Numbered from the stretch's first letter, positions 6,846-52,506 are shown. The stretch is 64,000 nt of DNA from Kribbella sp. NBC_00382 (GCF_036067295.1 NZ_CP107954.1:2542001-2606000), one strand, 5' to 3'. The notes: a model not told the origin generated them from the letters alone. A program made the numbers and translations.

Positions 6846-7340
6846 TCAGACGTGGTCGGCGTAGGCCAGGTGGGTGCCGCAGTGCAGGCAGCGGAACAGG
6901 TAACCGGTCGCCTCGCCGGTCGCCGACAGGGCGGTCGCGGGCTGGTTGATCATCTCCAGTGCTTCGGGGACGACCAGTAGGTCCTCGTAGCCGACCTTGC
7001 CCAGGTACGCCGCTGCGTCGGCGCAGTGGAACATCCAGTGCTCCTGCTGCCACCCACTGAACCCAGGGGTCCGGGTGAGCACCTCGGTGAGAACCGGCTG
7101 GGGCACGTCGTCCGGGACGTCGAGGACGGCAGTGAGCTCGGCCTCGAACAGGGTTGCCGCCGAGCCGTCCGAGATGCACCACAGGCAGAGCTCCTCGACC
7201 ACCTCGTCCTCGCTGTAGACCGGCCCGGTGTACATCAGCCCGCGGTGCCGGCCGCAGCAGCGGCAGGGCGCATCGCTGGTGATCACCTCACCAGTGCCCA
7301 CCGGATCGGGGTGGTAGCGGAACGTCGGTACGTCGGTCAC
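6846..7340 (-). CDS. CbrC-family (UPF0167) protein
   Basis: A 164-residue soluble protein with three cysteine pairs: CRCC near residue 26, CLWC near 52 and CLHC near the C-terminus. The order FRYHPDPVGTG, then CCGRHRG, then the Trp-rich GWQQEHW and a final CLHCGTH matches CbrC/UPF0167 proteins, named after an E. coli colicin E2 tolerance factor. The biochemical role is unknown; the cysteines suggest zinc binding. The start is GTG at 7340, with CAAGGT 6 nt upstream, so it may be leaderless. It diverges from the Fpg gene. Confidence 0.8.
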   Translation of the reverse strand: MTDVPTFRYHPDPVGTGEVITSDAPCRCCGRHRGLMYTGPVYSEDEVVEELCLWCISDGSAATLFEAELTAVLDVPDDVPQPVLTEVLTRTPGFSGWQQEHWMFHCADAAAYLGKVGYEDLLVVPEALEMINQPATALSATGEATGYLFRCLHCGTHLAYADHV

Positions 7341-7473
7341 ACCCAGACCTTGGCGGACCGGCGTACCGGGTGCAAGTCAGCCCGCCTCTTCCCTTGCCTT
7401 GTACTGTCCCCGCTCGCTCCCCCTCCGCTTTCCTTCCCTTGCTCTGTCCGTGCCGTAAGGCACACTTGGGGGC

Positions 7474-28511: not shown

Positions 28512-28537
28512 CGAGCTATCGTTGACGAAGTAACAAA

Positions 28538-28650
28538 ACCTCCGCGGGAGCTCGCGCCGATCAGCGGGCTGAGAGGGCGACGAGCTGTAGAACCAGCCGG
28601 GTCGCCGACCGCCTGAACCTGACCGGGTAATGCCGGCGTAGGGAGCAGGT
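28538..28650 (+). ncRNA. TPP (THI-element) riboswitch
   Basis: The conserved thi-box blocks are present: GCGGGCTGAGAGG near 28564, CCTGAACCTGACCGGGTAAT near 28612, and GCCGGCGTAGGGAG at 28632-28645. They match the pyrimidine- and pyrophosphate-sensing helices of TPP aptamers. The final GGGAG is also the SD of the gene at 28656 (10 nt before ATG), and the CTCC near 28539 could pair with it in P1. Ligand binding should therefore directly block translation. Confidence 0.93.
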
Positions 28651-28655
28651 CAGCC

Positions 28656-29984
28656 ATGACCACTACCGCTGCACGCACGTCCACCGCCACCGAGGCGCCG
28701 CTCGTCCTGACCACGGACGCGCCCCGCACCTTGGGGTTCCTCGACCAGTTCACGCTCTGGGGCAACTTCGGCATCTCGCTGTTCGGCCCGGTGACCGGCG
28801 CGCTCGTCGCGGCGTACACGGGTTCGCTGGTGAAGGGCCTGATCGCCGTCGTCGTCGGCTGCGGGATCGGCGCTCTGGTACTCGGCGGCGCCGCCGTCTT
28901 CGGCTCGCACACCGGCGCACCCGCGATGGCCAGCCTGCGTGGGCTGTTCGGCCGCCGTGGCTCGATGGCGCCGACGGTGCTCAACATCGCGCAGAACATC
29001 GGCTGGGCCACGATGGAGATCATCGTGATCTCGCAAGCGGCCGTGGCGGTGACGAGCGAGAGCTGGCGCTGGCTGTTCGTCCTGATCGCCGGCTTCATCG
29101 CGACCGCGATGGCCGTCCGGCCGCTCGGCAGCGTGAAGATCCTGCGCAAGTTCATGGTCTGGCTGGTCCTGCTGGCCTCGGTCTACCTGTTCATCCAGGT
29201 ACTCAGCAAGCCGGTCCACGACCTGCCGCAGGACAGCGTCTTCGGCTTCTGGCCGGGTGTCGACCTCGCCGCGGCCGGCGTTGTCTCGTTCGCGCCGCTC
29301 GCCGCCGACTACACCAGGCACTCGCGTACCAACAAGGCCGCCTTCGCCGGTTCGGCCCTCGGCTACGGCCTCGCCGCGATCCTGTACTACGCACTCGGGG
29401 TGATCGCCGTCGCCACCCTGCAGACCAACAGCACCGACGTGATCACCGCGCTGGTCACCCTGCCGGCCGGCGCGATCGCGTTGTTCGTCCTGCTGGTCGA
29501 CGAGGTGGACGAGGCCTACGCGAACGTGTACTCGACCACGATGGCCGCGCACAACCTGATCGGCCACATCGACCGGCGCTGGATCTCCGTTGCCATCGGC
29601 ATCCTCGCCACCGTGCTCGCGCTCTTCGTTGACCTGGGCAACTACACCCAGTTCCTGTACCTGATCGGATCGGTCTTCATCCCGTTGTTCGCGGTCGCGA
29701 TCGCCGACTTCTTCGTGGTCAGCAAGATGAACTGGGACGTCTCCGACACCGCCAAGTTCCGCTGGCAACCCACCCTGGCCTGGGTCTTCGGCTTCGTCGC
29801 CTACCAACTCGTCAACCCCGGCACGGTCGAAGGCTGGTCCCCGTTCTGGCTCGACCTCCAGCAGTCCCTCTTCAACAACCAGCCGGTACCGGGCTGGCTC
29901 GGCGCGACGTACACGTCGATCGTGGTGTCGATGGTCGCGGCGATCCTGTTCGGCCGGCTGGGACGGGCCAAGCAGACCGTCTAG
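28656..29984 (+). CDS. cytX: NCS1-family permease, CytX-like (thiamine pyrimidine precursor uptake)
   Basis: A 442-residue membrane protein of the nucleobase-cation-symport-1 family with about 12 helices. The first helix region FLDQFTLWGNFGISLFGPV and the segment NIAQNIGWATMEIIVI match the substrate-site helices 1 and 3 of NCS1 proteins. A TPP riboswitch immediately upstream points to uptake of hydroxymethylpyrimidine (CytX) instead of cytosine. No thi biosynthesis gene is adjacent. Its TAG stop shares CTAG with the stop of the convergent flavodoxin-fold gene. Confidence 0.85.
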   Translation: MTTTAARTSTATEAPLVLTTDAPRTLGFLDQFTLWGNFGISLFGPVTGALVAAYTGSLVKGLIAVVVGCGIGALVLGGAAVFGSHTGAPAMASLRGLFGRRGSMAPTVLNIAQNIGWATMEIIVISQAAVAVTSESWRWLFVLIAGFIATAMAVRPLGSVKILRKFMVWLVLLASVYLFIQVLSKPVHDLPQDSVFGFWPGVDLAAAGVVSFAPLAADYTRHSRTNKAAFAGSALGYGLAAILYYALGVIAVATLQTNSTDVITALVTLPAGAIALFVLLVDEVDEAYANVYSTTMAAHNLIGHIDRRWISVAIGILATVLALFVDLGNYTQFLYLIGSVFIPLFAVAIADFFVVSKMNWDVSDTAKFRWQPTLAWVFGFVAYQLVNPGTVEGWSPFWLDLQQSLFNNQPVPGWLGATYTSIVVSMVAAILFGRLGRAKQTV

Positions 29985-31606: not shown

Positions 31607-32173
31607 TTAACTTTTCGATTCCAGGTTCAGCAGGAATCGCTTGGCGTCCAGGCCGCCCGCGTAGCCGGTGAGCGCGCCGCTCGCGCCGATCACCCGATGG
31701 CAGGGAATCACCACGCACAAAGGGTTCGCGCCGAGCGCCGTGCCGACGGCCCGGGCCGCCTTCGGCCGGTCGATCTCGCCGGCCACCCGTCCGTACGTCG
31801 TCGTCTTGCCGTAGCTCGTGTGATCGGGCAGATCGGTCAGCACCAGTCGCTGGAATGGCGTCGCGAGAGTCAAATCAACAGTTAAATCAAACGCCTTTCG
31901 CTGACCGGTCAGGTATTCGTCCAATTGCCGCCGGACGTCGTCCAGCGGCCCGGGCTGGCGGAGTACGCGCGGGGAGATCGCCCGGGCGAGGCGGTCGGTC
32001 AGCGACTCCTCGTCGCCGAAGGAGCTGGCCACCACCCGGTCGCCCGCGACTGCGAGCAGCAGAGTGCCGATGGGGGTGTCGTGCAGGGTGTAGGAGACGT
32101 CGGCGGTCGGCAGGACCGGCGGGCGGGCGCCTCCCGGGGTGAGCCGGCTCAGCCGGCCTTCGAGGTCAGTCAT
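31607..32173 (-). CDS. ogt: methylated-DNA--protein-cysteine methyltransferase
   Basis: A 188-residue suicide repair protein that takes alkyl groups from O6-alkylguanine. The acceptor is Cys158 in IPCHRV, preceded by LGANPLCVV, and the arginine-finger helix region is TPFQRLVLTDLP with TSYGKTTTYGRVA. I choose the second ATG (32173) because GGAGTAAATG places the SD 6 nt upstream. The gene begins inside the 3' end of the ECF sigma gene, so the two are translationally coupled. Confidence 0.92.
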   Translation of the reverse strand: MTDLEGRLSRLTPGGARPPVLPTADVSYTLHDTPIGTLLLAVAGDRVVASSFGDEESLTDRLARAISPRVLRQPGPLDDVRRQLDEYLTGQRKAFDLTVDLTLATPFQRLVLTDLPDHTSYGKTTTYGRVAGEIDRPKAARAVGTALGANPLCVVIPCHRVIGASGALTGYAGGLDAKRFLLNLESKS

Positions 32174-32660
32174 CATTTACTCCGAGTTTGGTACGCAAGG
32201 TCGCGAGCGCATCGCTGACGAGTCGGCGGGATGCGGCGGGCGTGGTGTCCAGAGCGGCGGCCACGCCATGGTGGTCCAGGTCGCCGACGTACTTGAGCGT
32301 GACGGCGACGCGTTGCCGTTCGGGCAGGTCCTGCACGGCCTGCCAGAGCTCCGGATCGGGGAAGTCGGCGGCCTCCGGGCCGTCGACGGCGATCGGGGGC
32401 GCGTCGTCGAGGGGTGTCTGCGGTTTGCGGGCGCGGTACATGTCGGTGGCGCAGCGGGCGGTGATGGTGAGCAGCCAGCTGCGCAGGTTCTGCGCCGAGG
32501 TCAGGTTCGGGTACGCGGCGAAGGCCTTCTCCCAGGCGCGCTGGGCCACGTCGTCGCCGTCCACCGGTCCGGCCAGCGCCCGCGCGAGCCTGGCGACGTC
32601 GCGCCAGTGATCGTCGATGAGCGCCTGGAACGGCGGCAGCCTGACCTTCTCCGAAACCAT
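32166..32660 (-). CDS. ECF-type RNA polymerase sigma factor
   Basis: A 164-residue sigma factor. Region 2 contains DDVAQRAWEKAFAAYPNL and the -10-recognition helix NLRSWLLTITARCATDMYRARK. Region 4 has LPERQRVAVTLKYVGDLDHHGVAAALDTTPAASRRL, ending in the helix-turn-helix. No anti-sigma gene is adjacent; the next gene, overlapping by 8 nt, is ogt. An alkylation or DNA-damage response is plausible but inferred. The start at 32660 (MVSEKVRL) fits the family; in-frame ATGs at 32678 and 32702 are alternatives. Confidence 0.83.
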   Translation of the reverse strand: MVSEKVRLPPFQALIDDHWRDVARLARALAGPVDGDDVAQRAWEKAFAAYPNLTSAQNLRSWLLTITARCATDMYRARKPQTPLDDAPPIAVDGPEAADFPDPELWQAVQDLPERQRVAVTLKYVGDLDHHGVAAALDTTPAASRRLVSDALATLRTKLGVNDD

Positions 32661-32773
32661 CACGCCAGTAGAACGCATGCACACCCGGCCGTGTGAGGGC
32701 ACTCCGTGGACCGTCGTTTCGAATACCGAGATTGTCTAGTTTTCCAGTGGACTTTGATGAGAGAGTCGTTGAC

Positions 32774-32866
32774 ATGACGACGAACCTGCCGGTGCTGATC
32801 AGCAGTCTGCTGACGCGCCGTCGCGTCATCGACCAGATGCGCACCTCCAGCGCAACCTGTCGCTAG
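32774..32866 (+). CDS. leader peptide of the sulfur operon (30 codons)
   Basis: The peptide starts MTTNLPVLIS and ends LTRRRVIDQMRTSSATCR, then TAG. This fits the L-T-x-R-R-x-I-D-x-x-R-x-x-S-A-x-C-R consensus of the short putative leader peptides found before sulfur-uptake operons in actinobacteria. The only cysteine is the second-last codon. GAGAG lies 8-12 nt before the ATG. The stop is 154 nt before the flavin reductase gene. A CCGGC/GCCGG hairpin at 32912-32927 lies between them. It probably senses cysteine supply by ribosome stalling. Confidence 0.72.
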   Translation: MTTNLPVLISSLLTRRRVIDQMRTSSATCR

Positions 32867-33020
32867 TACCTCCGTACTGCCGCTCGTCGTGTGACTGAGC
32901 GAAGACGCCTCCCGGCCTGAGAGCCGGCTGTAACCCCACCCGCCCGGTCGCGGTCCAAAGAACTGACAGAGCCCTGCCTGTCCGCTGCCGGTCGTCCCTG
33001 CCCCGTCCCGAGGGAGAGAC

Positions 33021-33584
33021 ATGTCCGTCCATGCGATCCACCCTGCCCTGCCCAGCCGCCCCGGCCTCACCGTCGTACCGGACCCACAGGATGTCGAACG
33101 GACCGTCGACGCCGACATCTTCCGGTCGGTGTTCCGCCGGCACGCGGCCGGCGTGGTCGTGATCACCGCGGACGCGGGCAACGGCCCGGCCGGCTTCACC
33201 GCGACCTCGCTCGTCTCGGTCAGCCTGCTGCCGCCGCTGGTGTCGTTCTCGATCGCCACCACCGCGTCCAGCTGGCCGACGGTCCACCGGGCCGACAGCC
33301 TGGTGATCAACTTCCTCGACGCCGGCCAGCACGAGATCGCCGGGCGGTTCGCCACCAGCGGCGTCGACCGGTTCGCCGAGCCGACCCGCTGGTCCCGGCT
33401 GCGGACCGGAGAGCCCGTACTGGACGAGGCGCCCAGCTACTTGCGCGGACTCGTCGAACACCGCTTCGCAGTCGCCGATCACCACATCGTCGTGGTCCGG
33501 CTCGCCACCCATGCCGAACGCCGCGACCACGAGCCGTTGCTGTACCACGACGGCCGCTACGCGACCACCGACCGGCCCTCCTGA
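33021..33584 (+). CDS. flavin reductase of the sulfonate/organosulfur operon
   Basis: A 187-residue FMN-binding split-barrel reductase. The conserved blocks are FRRHAAGVVVITA (about 38-50), GPAGFTATSLVSVSLLPPLVSFSI (54-77) and HRADSLVINFLDAGQ. It would supply reduced FMN to the monooxygenase encoded four genes on. A strong SD (GAGGGAGAG) precedes the ATG. It is the first structural gene after the leader peptide. Confidence 0.88.
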   Translation: MSVHAIHPALPSRPGLTVVPDPQDVERTVDADIFRSVFRRHAAGVVVITADAGNGPAGFTATSLVSVSLLPPLVSFSIATTASSWPTVHRADSLVINFLDAGQHEIAGRFATSGVDRFAEPTRWSRLRTGEPVLDEAPSYLRGLVEHRFAVADHHIVVVRLATHAERRDHEPLLYHDGRYATTDRPS

Positions 33585-33596
33585 ACCCCTGTCTGG

Positions 33597-34664
33597 ATGA
33601 AGCTCATGCCTAAGAAATCCCTTGCTGTACTAGCCGCCGCGGCACTGGCCGCCGTCACCCTGCTCTCCGGTTGCGGCGGCGACGCCCAGGCCGGCGGGAC
33701 CGGCGCGAAGCTCGCGCTCGACGCACCGCTGCCGACCGAAGTACCGGACGGCGTGAAGATCGTCGTCGGCGATCCGGCCACCCAGGTGGCGTTCAAGCTG
33801 TCGGGCCAGCTCGACAAGGTCTCGAAGTACACCACCTTCGCCAACCTCAGCGGTGGTCCACAGACCACCGAGGCGTTCCGCGCGCACGCGCTGGACCTCG
33901 GCTCGGTCGCGGAGATCCCGTCGATCCACGCCACCTGGACCGGGCTGCACGTCAAGATCGTCGCCTCCAAATTCCGGCTGGACCCGATCAATCACCCGAT
34001 CTACGAGCTCGGCGTGGCACCCGGCGTACAGGTGAAGACGCTGGCCGACCTGCGCGGCAAGAAGATCGCGTACAGCCCCGGCCAGGCGCAGGGCGCGCTG
34101 GTGCTCAAGGTGCTGAAGAAGGCGGGGCTGACCAAGGAGGACGTCAAGCTCGTCGAGCTGCCGAGCACCGGGGACATCTACCCGAACGCGCTCGCGGCCA
34201 AGCAGGTCGACGTCGCGCCGATCGGCGGCGTCTCGATCAAGCGGTACCTGACGAAGTACGGCAAAGACGGCGGGACCACGATCCAGCACGGGCTGCGCGA
34301 TGACGCCGGTCACCTCTACGGGCCGACCGAGTCGCTCGAGGACGCGGGCAAGGCGGCCGCGATCCGGGCGTACGTCGCGGCCTGGGGCGTCGCTCAGGAC
34401 TGGATCGACAAGCACCCCAAGGAATGGATCGAGGGGTACTACGTGAAGGACCAGGGACTCACCGAGGCGGACGGCCAGTGGCTGGTCGACAACGCCGGCC
34501 ACCCGGACATCAGCGGTGACTGGAGCGACGCGATCAAGCGGCAGCAGGAGACCATCGAACTGCTCGCCAAGGAGACCGGCAAGCCGGTGATCCAGGCCAA
34601 GGACCTGTACGACCTGCGCTTCCAGACCGTGGCGTCCGATGCGATCAAGGCGGCGGCCAAGTGA
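33597..34664 (+). CDS. SsuA-type ABC substrate-binding lipoprotein
   Basis: A 355-residue periplasmic-type binding protein anchored as a lipoprotein (lipobox LLSGC, about 22-26). The NMT1/SsuA fold is seen in KIVVGDPATQVAFKLSGQLDKV and in LADLRGKKIAYSPGQAQGALVLKVLKKAGL. It should capture an alkane- or arylsulfonate or similar organosulfur compound. The ATG at 33606 is an alternative start. It overlaps the permease gene by 4 nt (GTGA). Confidence 0.88.
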   Translation: MKLMPKKSLAVLAAAALAAVTLLSGCGGDAQAGGTGAKLALDAPLPTEVPDGVKIVVGDPATQVAFKLSGQLDKVSKYTTFANLSGGPQTTEAFRAHALDLGSVAEIPSIHATWTGLHVKIVASKFRLDPINHPIYELGVAPGVQVKTLADLRGKKIAYSPGQAQGALVLKVLKKAGLTKEDVKLVELPSTGDIYPNALAAKQVDVAPIGGVSIKRYLTKYGKDGGTTIQHGLRDDAGHLYGPTESLEDAGKAAAIRAYVAAWGVAQDWIDKHPKEWIEGYYVKDQGLTEADGQWLVDNAGHPDISGDWSDAIKRQQETIELLAKETGKPVIQAKDLYDLRFQTVASDAIKAAAK

Positions 34665-35512
34665 CGCAGCTGGCGATTCCAGGCATCCGGACGGGGGAGC
34701 GGGAGCAACGCGCTGTCGCTCAACCGCTCCGTCGGCGCCGGCGGCTCGGGCCGGGCAAGCAGCTCAAGTTCGGCGCCGCTCTCGGCCCGATCCTCCTCCT
34801 GGTGATCTGGTCGATCGGGTCCGCGACCGGGGTGCTCGATCCGCGCGTACTCTCGGCGCCGTGGACGGTCGTCACCACGACCGGCGACCTGATCGCGGAC
34901 GGCCGGCTCCAGTCGAACCTGTGGACGTCTGCGCAGCGAGCCTTCGCAGGCCTCGGCATCGGCGTCCTGCTCGGCACGGTCCTGGCGCTCTTCTCGGGCC
35001 TGAGCCGGCTGGGCGAGGCGATCCTCGACGGTCCGATCCAGATCAAGCGGGCGATCCCGTCGCTCGCCCTGCTCCCGCTGCTGATCCTCTGGCTCGGCAT
35101 CGGTGAGTCGATGAAGATCACCACCATCACGCTCGGCGTCTTCGTGCCGATCTACATTCACACCCACAACGGCCTGCGCACGATCGACAGTCGGTACGTC
35201 GAACTTGCTGAGACGGTCGGGCTGTCCCGCTGGGAGTTCATCCGCTGGGTGGTACTGCCCGGCGCGCTGCCCGGCTTCCTGCTCGGCCTGCGCTTCGCCG
35301 TGACGGCTGCCTGGCTGTCGCTGGTGGTCGTCGAGCAGATCAACTCGACCAGCGGCATCGGCTACATGATGGAGCTGGCCCGCACCTACGGACAGACCGA
35401 CATCATCATCGTCGGGCTGGTCCTGTACGGCGCGCTCGGCCTGCTCTCCGACGGCGTGGTCCGACTGGTCCAGAGGAGGACGCTGTCATGGCGACGCACA
35501 CTGGCGGACTGA
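34661..35512 (+). CDS. SsuC-type ABC permease
   Basis: A 283-residue BPD-type permease. A basic N-terminus (to about 40) precedes six helices. The EAA loop reads VELAETVGLSRWEFIRWVVLPGALPGFLLGLRF (about 180-215), which contacts the ATPase. It begins at GTG inside the stop of the binding-protein gene and overlaps the ATPase gene by 25 nt, an unusually long overlap that strengthens coupling. Confidence 0.9.
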   Translation: MTQLAIPGIRTGEREQRAVAQPLRRRRRLGPGKQLKFGAALGPILLLVIWSIGSATGVLDPRVLSAPWTVVTTTGDLIADGRLQSNLWTSAQRAFAGLGIGVLLGTVLALFSGLSRLGEAILDGPIQIKRAIPSLALLPLLILWLGIGESMKITTITLGVFVPIYIHTHNGLRTIDSRYVELAETVGLSRWEFIRWVVLPGALPGFLLGLRFAVTAAWLSLVVVEQINSTSGIGYMMELARTYGQTDIIIVGLVLYGALGLLSDGVVRLVQRRTLSWRRTLAD

Positions 35513-36210
35513 CGCTGGATCACACCGTCGAGGTCAGAGGACTGACCCGGCGGTACGACGACCGCGCAGTACTCGACAACCTCGACCTCAGCATCAAGCC
35601 CGGCGAATTCGTTGCCCTGCTGGGAAAGAGCGGCTCGGGCAAGAGCACGTTGCTGCGTGCGCTCGCCGGGCTGGACTACGACGTCGCTGGCTCTGGCGAA
35701 CTCGTCGTACCTGGGAACGTCTCCGTCGTCTTCCAGGACTCGCGATTGTTGCCCTGGGCACGGGTCCTCGACAATGTCGTACTGGGTCTGCGCGGCGCTG
35801 ACGACCGAGGACGCGAAAGCCTTGCCGAGGTGGGATTGGCGGGGCGTGAGAAGGCCTGGCCGAACGAGTTGTCCGGCGGTGAGCAGCAGCGGGTCGCCCT
35901 GGCGCGTTCGTTGGTACGGGAGCCCGCGTTGCTGTTGGCGGATGAGCCGTTCGGGGCGCTGGACGCGCTGACCCGGCTGAAGATGCATGTTCTGCTGAGG
36001 AAACTCTGCGCGGCGCATCAGCCGGCCGTGCTGCTCGTCACCCATGACGTGGACGAGTCGATCGTGCTCGCCGACCGGGTGATCGTGCTCGACGAGGGCC
36101 GGATCGTTGCGGAGGAACAGATCGAGCTCGCCGAGCCGCGCAGCCCGGCGGATCCCGGGTTCGCTGCCGTCCGTACCAGACTTCTTGATGCGTTGGGAGT
36201 ATCGCTGTGA
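35488..36210 (+). CDS. SsuB-type ABC ATPase
   Basis: A 240-residue ATPase. Walker A GKSGSGKST is near 47, the Q-loop is VVFQDSRLLPWARVLDNV, the signature LSGGEQQRVALARSLV is near 127, and Walker B is ALLLADEPFGALDAL. The LLPW after the Q-loop is typical of nitrate/sulfonate/taurine importers. A strong SD (GAGGAGG, 8 nt before ATG) lies inside the permease gene. The stop overlaps the monooxygenase GTG (GTGA). Confidence 0.92.
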   Translation: MATHTGGLTLDHTVEVRGLTRRYDDRAVLDNLDLSIKPGEFVALLGKSGSGKSTLLRALAGLDYDVAGSGELVVPGNVSVVFQDSRLLPWARVLDNVVLGLRGADDRGRESLAEVGLAGREKAWPNELSGGEQQRVALARSLVREPALLLADEPFGALDALTRLKMHVLLRKLCAAHQPAVLLVTHDVDESIVLADRVIVLDEGRIVAEEQIELAEPRSPADPGFAAVRTRLLDALGVSL

Positions 36211-37544
36211 GCCGTCATCTGCACTTGAACGCGTTCTTGATGAGCACCGGGCACCACGAGGCGTCGTGGCGGCTGCCGGAGAGCAACCCGGTCGCGAACA
36301 CGGACGTGGCGCATTACCAGAACCTGGCCCGGATCGCGGAGCGCGGCAAGTTCGACTCGGTCTTCTTCGCCGACTCGCCCCAGCTGATCGGCGACATCGG
36401 GCGCCGCCCGGCCGGCGCCTTGGAGCCGACCGTGCTGTTGACCGCGATCGCGGCGGCCACTTCACGGATCGGGCTGATCGCTACCGCCAGTACGACGTAC
36501 AACGATCCGTACAACCTGGCGCGACGCTTCGCGAGCGTCGACCACGTGAGCGGTGGGCGTGCCGGCTGGAACGTCGTCACCACCGCTGGCCCGGATGCGG
36601 CGAAGAACTTCAACCTGGCCGATCAGCCTGCGCATGCCGAGCGGTACGACCGGGCAGCCGAGTTCCTTGAGGTCGCCTACAAGCTGTGGGACTCCTGGGA
36701 GGACGACGCAACCCTTGCTGACAAGGAATCCGGCGTCTGGGGCGACAACGCCAAGGTCCAGCCGATCGAACACGTCGGCCGCCACTTCCAGGTCCACGGC
36801 GCCCTCAACCTGCCCCGCTCACCGCAAGGTCATCCCCTGATCGTGCAGGCCGGGTCGTCCGAGGACGGCAAGGGCCTGGCTGCCCGCTACGCCGAGGCCG
36901 TCTTCACCGCACAGCAGACGTTGGAAGACGCTCAAGCCTTCTACGCCGACCTCAAAGCCCGTACCGCCGCGCTCGGCCGCGACCCGTCCACGCTCAAGAT
37001 CCTCCCCGGCATCGTCCCCGTGATCGGTGACACCGAAGCCGAAGCCCTGCGGTTGGAACGCGAACTCGACGACCTGATCAAACCCGAGTACGCCCGCCAG
37101 CAACTGGCCAAGACGCTGCGGGTCAAGCCGGAGGACCTGCCGCTCGACCAGCAACTCCCGGCCGATCTTCCCGACGAGGACGAGATCGAGGGCGCCAAGA
37201 GCCGCTACACGCTCATCGTCACCCTGGCCCGCCGCGAGAAGCTCACCGTCCGCCAACTGATCGGCCGCCTGGGCGGAGGCCGAGGCCACCGAACCTTCAG
37301 CGGCACCCCGGAACAGGTGGCCGACGCGATCCAGGAATGGTTCGACGCCGACGCGGCCGACGGCTTCAACATCATGCCTGCGGTCCTACCGTCCGGCCTG
37401 GAAGCCTTCGCCGACCACGTGGTCCCGATCCTGCAAGCACGCGACTTGTTCCGCACCGACTACACCGGCACAACCCTCCGAGACCACTACGGCTTGGCGC
37501 GTCCCACCGGCCGTACCAAGTCCCTACAGGAAGCCGTCAGCTAA
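36207..37544 (+). CDS. NtaA/SnaA/DszA-type FMN-dependent monooxygenase
   Basis: A 445-residue luciferase-like (LLM) flavin monooxygenase. The start HLHLNAFLMSTGHHEASWRLPE and the blocks FADSPQLIGDI, EPTVLLTAIAAATSRIGLIATASTTYNDPYNLARRFAS and GRAGWNVVTT are diagnostic of the NtaA/DszA/DmoA branch. With the operon's reductase it probably cleaves a C-S or C-N bond of the imported compound. DszA-type members act on sulfones and DmoA on dimethyl sulfide. It is the last gene before a 14-bp terminator. Confidence 0.9.
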   Translation: MSRHLHLNAFLMSTGHHEASWRLPESNPVANTDVAHYQNLARIAERGKFDSVFFADSPQLIGDIGRRPAGALEPTVLLTAIAAATSRIGLIATASTTYNDPYNLARRFASVDHVSGGRAGWNVVTTAGPDAAKNFNLADQPAHAERYDRAAEFLEVAYKLWDSWEDDATLADKESGVWGDNAKVQPIEHVGRHFQVHGALNLPRSPQGHPLIVQAGSSEDGKGLAARYAEAVFTAQQTLEDAQAFYADLKARTAALGRDPSTLKILPGIVPVIGDTEAEALRLERELDDLIKPEYARQQLAKTLRVKPEDLPLDQQLPADLPDEDEIEGAKSRYTLIVTLARREKLTVRQLIGRLGGGRGHRTFSGTPEQVADAIQEWFDADAADGFNIMPAVLPSGLEAFADHVVPILQARDLFRTDYTGTTLRDHYGLARPTGRTKSLQEAVS

Positions 37545-37550
37545 AAAGAC

Positions 37551-37586
37551 TTGCCCACCGCGTCTCCTGCAGGACGCGGTGGGCAA
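37551..37586 (+). terminator. strong terminator of the sulfur operon
   Basis: A perfect 14-bp stem (TTGCCCACCGCGTC / GACGCGGTGGGCAA) with an 8-nt loop begins 7 nt after the monooxygenase stop and lies before the convergent secreted-protein gene. Confidence 0.85.
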
Positions 37587-52270: not shown

Positions 52271-52432
52271 GAGGCTCGTGAGTGGTGTGGATCGACGCTG
52301 GAGGCGCCCAGGCACGCACCTCGCGGCACCTGAGCAGCATCCACGATGCTCCGCATCGAGGACGCTCCTCACGCACCGCGATGCACGCACCTGGCCACCT
52401 CCATCGTTCGATCCACACCACTCACGAGCCTC
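52271..52432. repeat. 162-nt palindromic element with perfect 25-bp ends
   Basis: The outer arms 52271-52295 and 52408-52432 are perfect complements (left begins GAGGCTCGTGAGTGG). Inside, 40 of 54 arm positions still pair, with the centre at GATGC-TCC-GCATC (52345-52357). The whole element is close to one long hairpin. It lies alone in the 257-nt gap between the divergent PAP2-kinase gene and serS. I see no flanking target-site duplication. Confidence 0.85.
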
Positions 52433-52494
52433 GATGACGTACTGGTGCCAGCTCATCATCCCGAATAGACTTCGCCGCCGCTGACACGCCCCGA

Positions 52495-52500
52495 TACCCT
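52495..52500 (+). promoter_or_regulatory. leaderless-type -10 element, serS
   Basis: TACCCT lies 6 nt before the GTG at 52507 and there is no SD. The palindrome therefore ends 62 nt upstream of this -10 and would not be in the serS mRNA. Confidence 0.5.
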
Positions 52501-52506
52501 GCACCT

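Follow-up and report, generated by a model that had tools for sequence, protein, structure and literature searches.

The leader frame and the operon behind it

We identified in the window (the whole 64,000-nucleotide stretch of Kribbella sp. NBC_00382 DNA, to which all coordinates refer) a 30-codon frame at 32774-32866 whose C-terminus reads LTRRRVIDQMRTSSATCR and whose sole Cys codon (TGT) is penultimate, exactly as given in the preliminary description of the locus. The frame carries this one Cys codon and no run of consecutive Cys codons. Behind it lie 154 nt free of genes, which hold the hairpin that had also been described (32912-32927), and then the flavin reductase that opens the operon. 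The features are as follows.

32728..32773, + strand: conserved block GAGATTGTCtAGTTN5gTnGACnTTGATG...TGAC, from 35 orthologs, a putative promoter/operator
32774..32866, + strand: leader peptide ORF of 30 aa, MTTNLPVLISSLLTRRRVIDQMRTSSATCR and stop; full-length NF042934 match, present at 35/35 orthologs
32810..32863, + strand: conserved core LTRRRVIDQMRTSSATCR (L-16, R-13, D-9, R-6, C0)
32858..32860, + strand: putative sensor Cys codon (TGT here; nearly always UGU in the family)
32867..33020, + strand: C-rich spacer of fast turnover, with a small hairpin and a predicted occluded Shine-Dalgarno
32912-32927, + strand: short hairpin CCGGCCTGAGAGCCGG inside the spacer
33021..33584, + strand: flavin reductase (PF01613), by profile match
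33597..34664, + strand: SsuA-family substrate-binding lipoprotein (TIGR01728 below cut-off; PF09084)
34661..35512, + strand: SsuC-type ABC permease, by profile match
35488..36210, + strand: SsuB-type ABC ATPase, by profile match
36207..37544, + strand: NtaA/DmoA-family FMN-dependent, luciferase-type monooxygenase, not SsuD (TIGR03860)
37554..37583, 3' of the operon: GC-rich inverted repeat CCCACCGCGTC...GACGCGGTGGG, from the sequence

The gene order (reductase-SsuA-SsuC-SsuB-monooxygenase) agrees with the preliminary description, and the overlapping stops and starts that it reported throughout occur at three of the four junctions, the reductase and SsuA genes being separated by a 12-nt gap. 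The inverted repeat behind the operon is a possible terminator without a U-tract. The monooxygenase scored 566.7 bits against the NtaA/DmoA profile (TIGR03860, cut-off 279.7) and only 50.2 bits against SsuD (TIGR03565), far under the cut-off of 518.2, and its identification as SsuD was rejected on these scores. The desulfonation attributed to the operon is thus unproven. Since the enzyme belongs to the NtaA/DmoA family and not to SsuD, the genes are best read as a putative organosulfur uptake and oxidation operon, the substrate of which is not fixed by sequence. Elsewhere in the window we noted a TPP riboswitch (RF00059, 61.9 bits) at 28534-28661 on the + strand and a strong excess of C over G before + strand genes at 7330-7473 and 52356-52506.

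The preliminary description had made conservation in close relatives a touchstone for the leader, and we found it kept at 35/35 of the same-genus orthologous operons examined, 64-200 nt 5' of the reductase, with SsuA adjoining the reductase in every one. Such retention means that the frame is not a chance one. Over the 18 conserved codons and the stop, pN/pS was 0.20 among the 35 orthologs, and variation reached the third codon position at 15 of 19 codons, the first at 7 and the second at 7; this synonymous-type signal was absent from the other two frames of the leader region in the same orthologs. The whole peptide ranges from 23 to 49 residues among orthologs, and its C-terminal 18 residues hardly vary. 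The ORF at 32774-32866 is, therefore, a real and conserved coding frame. Of 15 reductase homologs that are more distant and come from other families of the order, two have the leader, both with TGT; a recognisable SsuA lies beside the reductase in one of the 15 within the stretch examined, and that one has the leader.

Family NF042934 across the class

The leader matches NF042934, an NCBIfam entry annotated as a putative leader peptide (cis_reg_atten), over profile positions 1-19 with 16.7 bits (E = 0.0043). Because the score falls below the curated cut-off of 27 bits, the leader is classed as a divergent member of the family. It has the residues that are invariant in the family (R-13, D-9, R-6 and Cys0) and the near-invariant L-16, and departs from it in carrying Q for L at -8 and V-I for H-V or A-V at -11/-10. 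As in much of the family, the short ORF sits directly 5' of a gene of sulfur metabolism and is read from the same strand as that gene. The earlier view of a cysteine-type leader of a known actinobacterial style before an organosulfur operon is thus borne out by conservation and by the full-length profile match: judged by its sequence, the leader belongs to an already catalogued kind of actinobacterial leader peptide.

Leaders of the NF042934 type are widespread in the class. At least one occurred in 199 of 297 genomes sampled, and none was found at the same threshold in 14 control genomes. One family locus (L140) proved to be a false positive and is excluded. The leaders mostly precede sulfur genes; those behind a diverse sample of leaders encode cysteine synthase, sulfite reductase, sulfurtransferase, taurine dioxygenase (TauD), SsuE, sulfatase, O-acetylhomoserine sulfhydrylase, luciferase-type monooxygenase and cysteine dioxygenase, together with a dicarboxylate/amino-acid:cation symporter. 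The cysteine dioxygenase gene lies behind the leaders VRLWRRVHMDLVRYAGCVCRPSC (followed by the stop) of Streptomyces-like genomes (L098-L100, L107-L109 and L115-L117). At two loci (L126 and L127) the gene behind the leader encodes oxoacid:ferredoxin oxidoreductase, which is an iron-sulfur enzyme and not one of sulfur assimilation, and at another (L146) it encodes a ROK-family regulator.

The genome under study holds four more leaders of this type (L001-L004), all with TGT as the putative sensor codon. Named from their translations, the genes behind them encode an SsuA-like binding protein, an amino-acid ABC permease, a sulfite reductase and a DUF4395/sulfurtransferase pair. The peptide core is common to these paralogs despite unrelated flanks, and the five leaders may together constitute a cysteine-leader regulon. 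The single Cys had been put forward as new because it stands in place of a Cys run. Single-Cys leaders are, however, a common form in NF042934, others occur in this same genome, and the claim of novelty does not hold.

Poly-Cys leaders are also part of the family (L058-L063, ending in LTKRRAVDLCRVAGCCCCCCSC before the stop). Leaders of this mycobacterial type were predicted in 2005 (Seliverstov et al., PMC1262725), and those of M. smegmatis are reported as cysteine-responsive attenuators (Canestrari 2020, as relayed by the papers that cite it: PMC9031893, PMC13236596, PMC9094748). The leader described here shares with these leaderless short ORFs the LTxRRxxDxxR core before Cys, a start with no Shine-Dalgarno, the lack of a terminator and a sulfur operon behind it. 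It differs in that a single Cys codon, placed two codons ahead of the stop, stands where they have a Cys run, and in preceding an ssu-like rather than a cys operon.

Sequences flanking the leader

The block GAGATTGTCtAGTT...GTnGACnTTGATG directly 5' of the leader ATG is conserved in the 35 orthologs. In all 35 the ATG is preceded by GAC, and in none did we find a Shine-Dalgarno before it; judging from these sequences, translation at 32774 probably starts in near-leaderless fashion. Genome-wide, the only exact match to the block is at this leader, with one 3-mismatch site elsewhere, and an operator common to the five leaders of the genome was rejected on this basis. In one subclade (L021) the block takes the form of a perfect inverted repeat, ATTGTCTA-N9-TAGACAAT, which overlaps the presumed promoter and is possibly an operator. 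Another perfect inverted repeat, ATCGTGAGAT-CGC-ATCTCACGAT, precedes the leader of the sulfite reductase (L003), and similar half-sites precede two of the other leaders of this genome (L001 and L004). Directly upstream of the leader studied here, and divergent from it, lies a gene for an ECF sigma factor (SigE-like; 32166-32702, - strand), with its called start only ~70 nt from the leader ATG.

Between leader and reductase, little is conserved. The spacers of the 35 orthologs, 64-200 nt in length, do not align, and a conserved switch RNA at this position was rejected because their alignment is almost without consensus structure. Nor did the leader and spacer match any Rfam family up to E = 1. 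The hairpin at 32912-32927 is retained, with paired changes, in the closest relatives only (as judged by eye in the spacer alignment), so that of the peptide and hairpins whose conservation upstream of homologous operons had been raised earlier, the peptide is present at all 35 orthologs and the hairpin is not. We found no intrinsic terminator on the + strand before the first gene of the operon. The reductase Shine-Dalgarno, GAGGGAG, immediately before 33021, is predicted to be occluded; its mean predicted probability of being unpaired is 0.17, compared to 0.37 in control genes. Shuffled spacers of the same composition bury it equally strongly, however, and specific sequestration was therefore rejected: the burial follows from the C-rich composition of the spacer, not from specific pairing. 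C exceeds G in the spacers of 35/35 orthologs (mean C 0.42, G 0.28).

A single UGU codon and a fixed peptide

The motif Cys codon is UGU at 87 of 88 class-wide loci in ~34 genera (30/30 plus 57/58; L058-L146), at 35/35 orthologs and in 5/5 leaders of this genome. Among the genes of the window, UGU accounts for 18 of 109 Cys codons (~17%), a usage derived from crude gene calls. Other Cys codons within the 58-locus leader set are nearly all TGC (for example, 24/24 at -7 and 15/15 at -2), and the poly-Cys runs of the L058-L063 type mix TGT and TGC. A Fisher test for the UGU bias gave p ~1e-36 on roughly these counts, under the assumption, which does not hold, that the loci are independent. Upstream of the Cys, 79 distinct leaders from ~34 genera all have R-13, D-9 and R-6, and nearly all have L-16 and L-8; the codons for these residues vary freely. 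A selected hairpin around the UGU codon was rejected, for folding there was not stronger than in synonymously recoded controls (median fraction 0.42). With the residues invariant, their codons varying and no excess of local structure, what is constrained at those positions is the peptide, and at Cys the codon. We found no description or explanation of the UGU lock and the fixed residues in the openly accessible literature; subscription papers, the 2020 study among them, may contain one.

Taken together, the UGU lock and the fixed residues point to a pause that is assisted by the nascent chain and falls at one Cys codon of slow decoding. We consider it probable that the leader is a translated regulatory peptide of the NF042934 type and that it reports the supply of cysteinyl-tRNA through such a pause at UGU; the conserved coding frame, the constraints on peptide and UGU codon and the association with sulfur genes are established, and the pause, its signal and the step that follows are what we infer. 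The ribosome would start at or very near the 5' end of the transcript, without a Shine-Dalgarno, translate the leader and arrive at the single, slow, wobble-decoded UGU with L-16, R-13, D-9 and R-6 in the exit tunnel. With Cys-tRNA in short supply, it would pause there, two codons before the stop, and the nascent chain would prolong the pause enough for a single Cys codon to be sufficient. While paused, the ribosome would keep the operon on, either by holding open RNA that would otherwise bury the reductase Shine-Dalgarno or by shielding the spacer from Rho, and the operon products would import an organosulfur compound, oxidise it and release its sulfur. The corresponding proposal for leaders throughout the class, in which L-16, R-13, D-9 and R-6 would render the ribosome hypersensitive to Cys-tRNA (or to cysteine) at one UGU, is more tentative, and we rate it at somewhat under an even chance. 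A starvation signal fits poorly with cysteine dioxygenase, which consumes cysteine; with those Streptomyces-like leaders, either control acts with a different sign or the signal is something other than simple starvation.

The trp and his leaders are examples of classical attenuation, the Cys-type analog of which would sense codon demand only, and TnaC is an arrest peptide that senses tryptophan in the ribosome. The leader shares with TnaC-type arrest peptides a short length, fixed residues ~6-16 before the pause site and C-rich RNA behind, but its family has the UGU lock and a variable distance to the stop. With classical attenuators such as those of trp, ilvB and leuS in Streptomyces and Corynebacterium (PMC1262725; PMC8079986) it has in common a short ORF that places the relevant codon before an operon; unlike them, it has no terminator/antiterminator pair, its peptide is conserved and its sensor codon is one.

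Against this background, simple stalling at low Cys-tRNA, as proposed at the outset, captures the cysteine-type leader and leaves out the residues fixed up to 16 positions before the Cys; it explains neither the UGU preference nor the fixed peptide sequence. Plain Cys-codon attenuation, in which the leader would act only through its demand for Cys-tRNA at UGU, with the remainder of the peptide as filler, could draw on the near-constant use of UGU, which suits a decoding sensor, and on the existence of poly-Cys relatives that are reported to respond to cysteine in M. smegmatis (as cited in PMC9031893). A lone Cys codon is a weak sensor by itself, however, and the conservation of R-13, D-9 and R-6, with near-fixed L-16 and L-8, in 79 leaders with varying codons is left unexplained, and we regard this explanation as unlikely. 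Less likely still, by analogy with TnaC, the peptide would arrest the ribosome in response to free cysteine or another sulfur metabolite rather than to tRNA charging. The layout, with fixed residues 6-16 before the sensor and a stop codon close behind it, resembles that of ligand-sensing peptides, and such sensing could also serve the cysteine dioxygenase leaders. It would have no need for UGU over UGC, yet UGU is nearly always used, and the distance to the stop ranges from 0 to more than 10 codons, unlike in TnaC. That the leader is not translated and merely results from a conserved element in DNA or RNA, such as a promoter/operator or a structured RNA, is very improbable: the block before the ATG is indeed highly conserved, but the synonymous-type variation is confined to the reading frame, no Rfam family or excess local structure was found, and the peptide core recurs in paralogs with unrelated flanks.

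The part that Rho may play belongs to what follows the pause, so that it can be combined with a nascent-chain-assisted pause at UGU; the alternative to it is occlusion of the Shine-Dalgarno. A ribosome that finishes the leader would free the C-rich spacer for Rho, and a paused one would shield it. The excess of C over G in every ortholog and the lack of an intrinsic terminator are consistent with such control, and the same idea was put forward for mycobacterial cys leaders (PMC1262725). However, two upstream regions elsewhere in the window that are unrelated to this one (7330-7473 and 52356-52506) are equally C-rich, which makes spacer composition weak evidence for Rho, and occlusion of the Shine-Dalgarno is equally compatible with the data. 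Rho control is thus possible, at a little less than an even chance.

What makes the leader of interest is the UGU lock seen across the family, together with the fixed residues presumed to lie in the tunnel, and not its single Cys. Leaders of the NF042934 kind precede much of actinobacterial sulfur metabolism, and the organosulfur operon described here can be placed in a putative cysteine-leader regulon that has five leaders in this genome and reaches two thirds of the class genomes sampled. The UGU lock and the invariant residues bear on how the supply of an amino acid can be sensed through one codon only. If nascent-chain-assisted pausing is the mechanism, one UGU codon would do the work of a Cys run, and the leader would be part arrest peptide, part attenuator.
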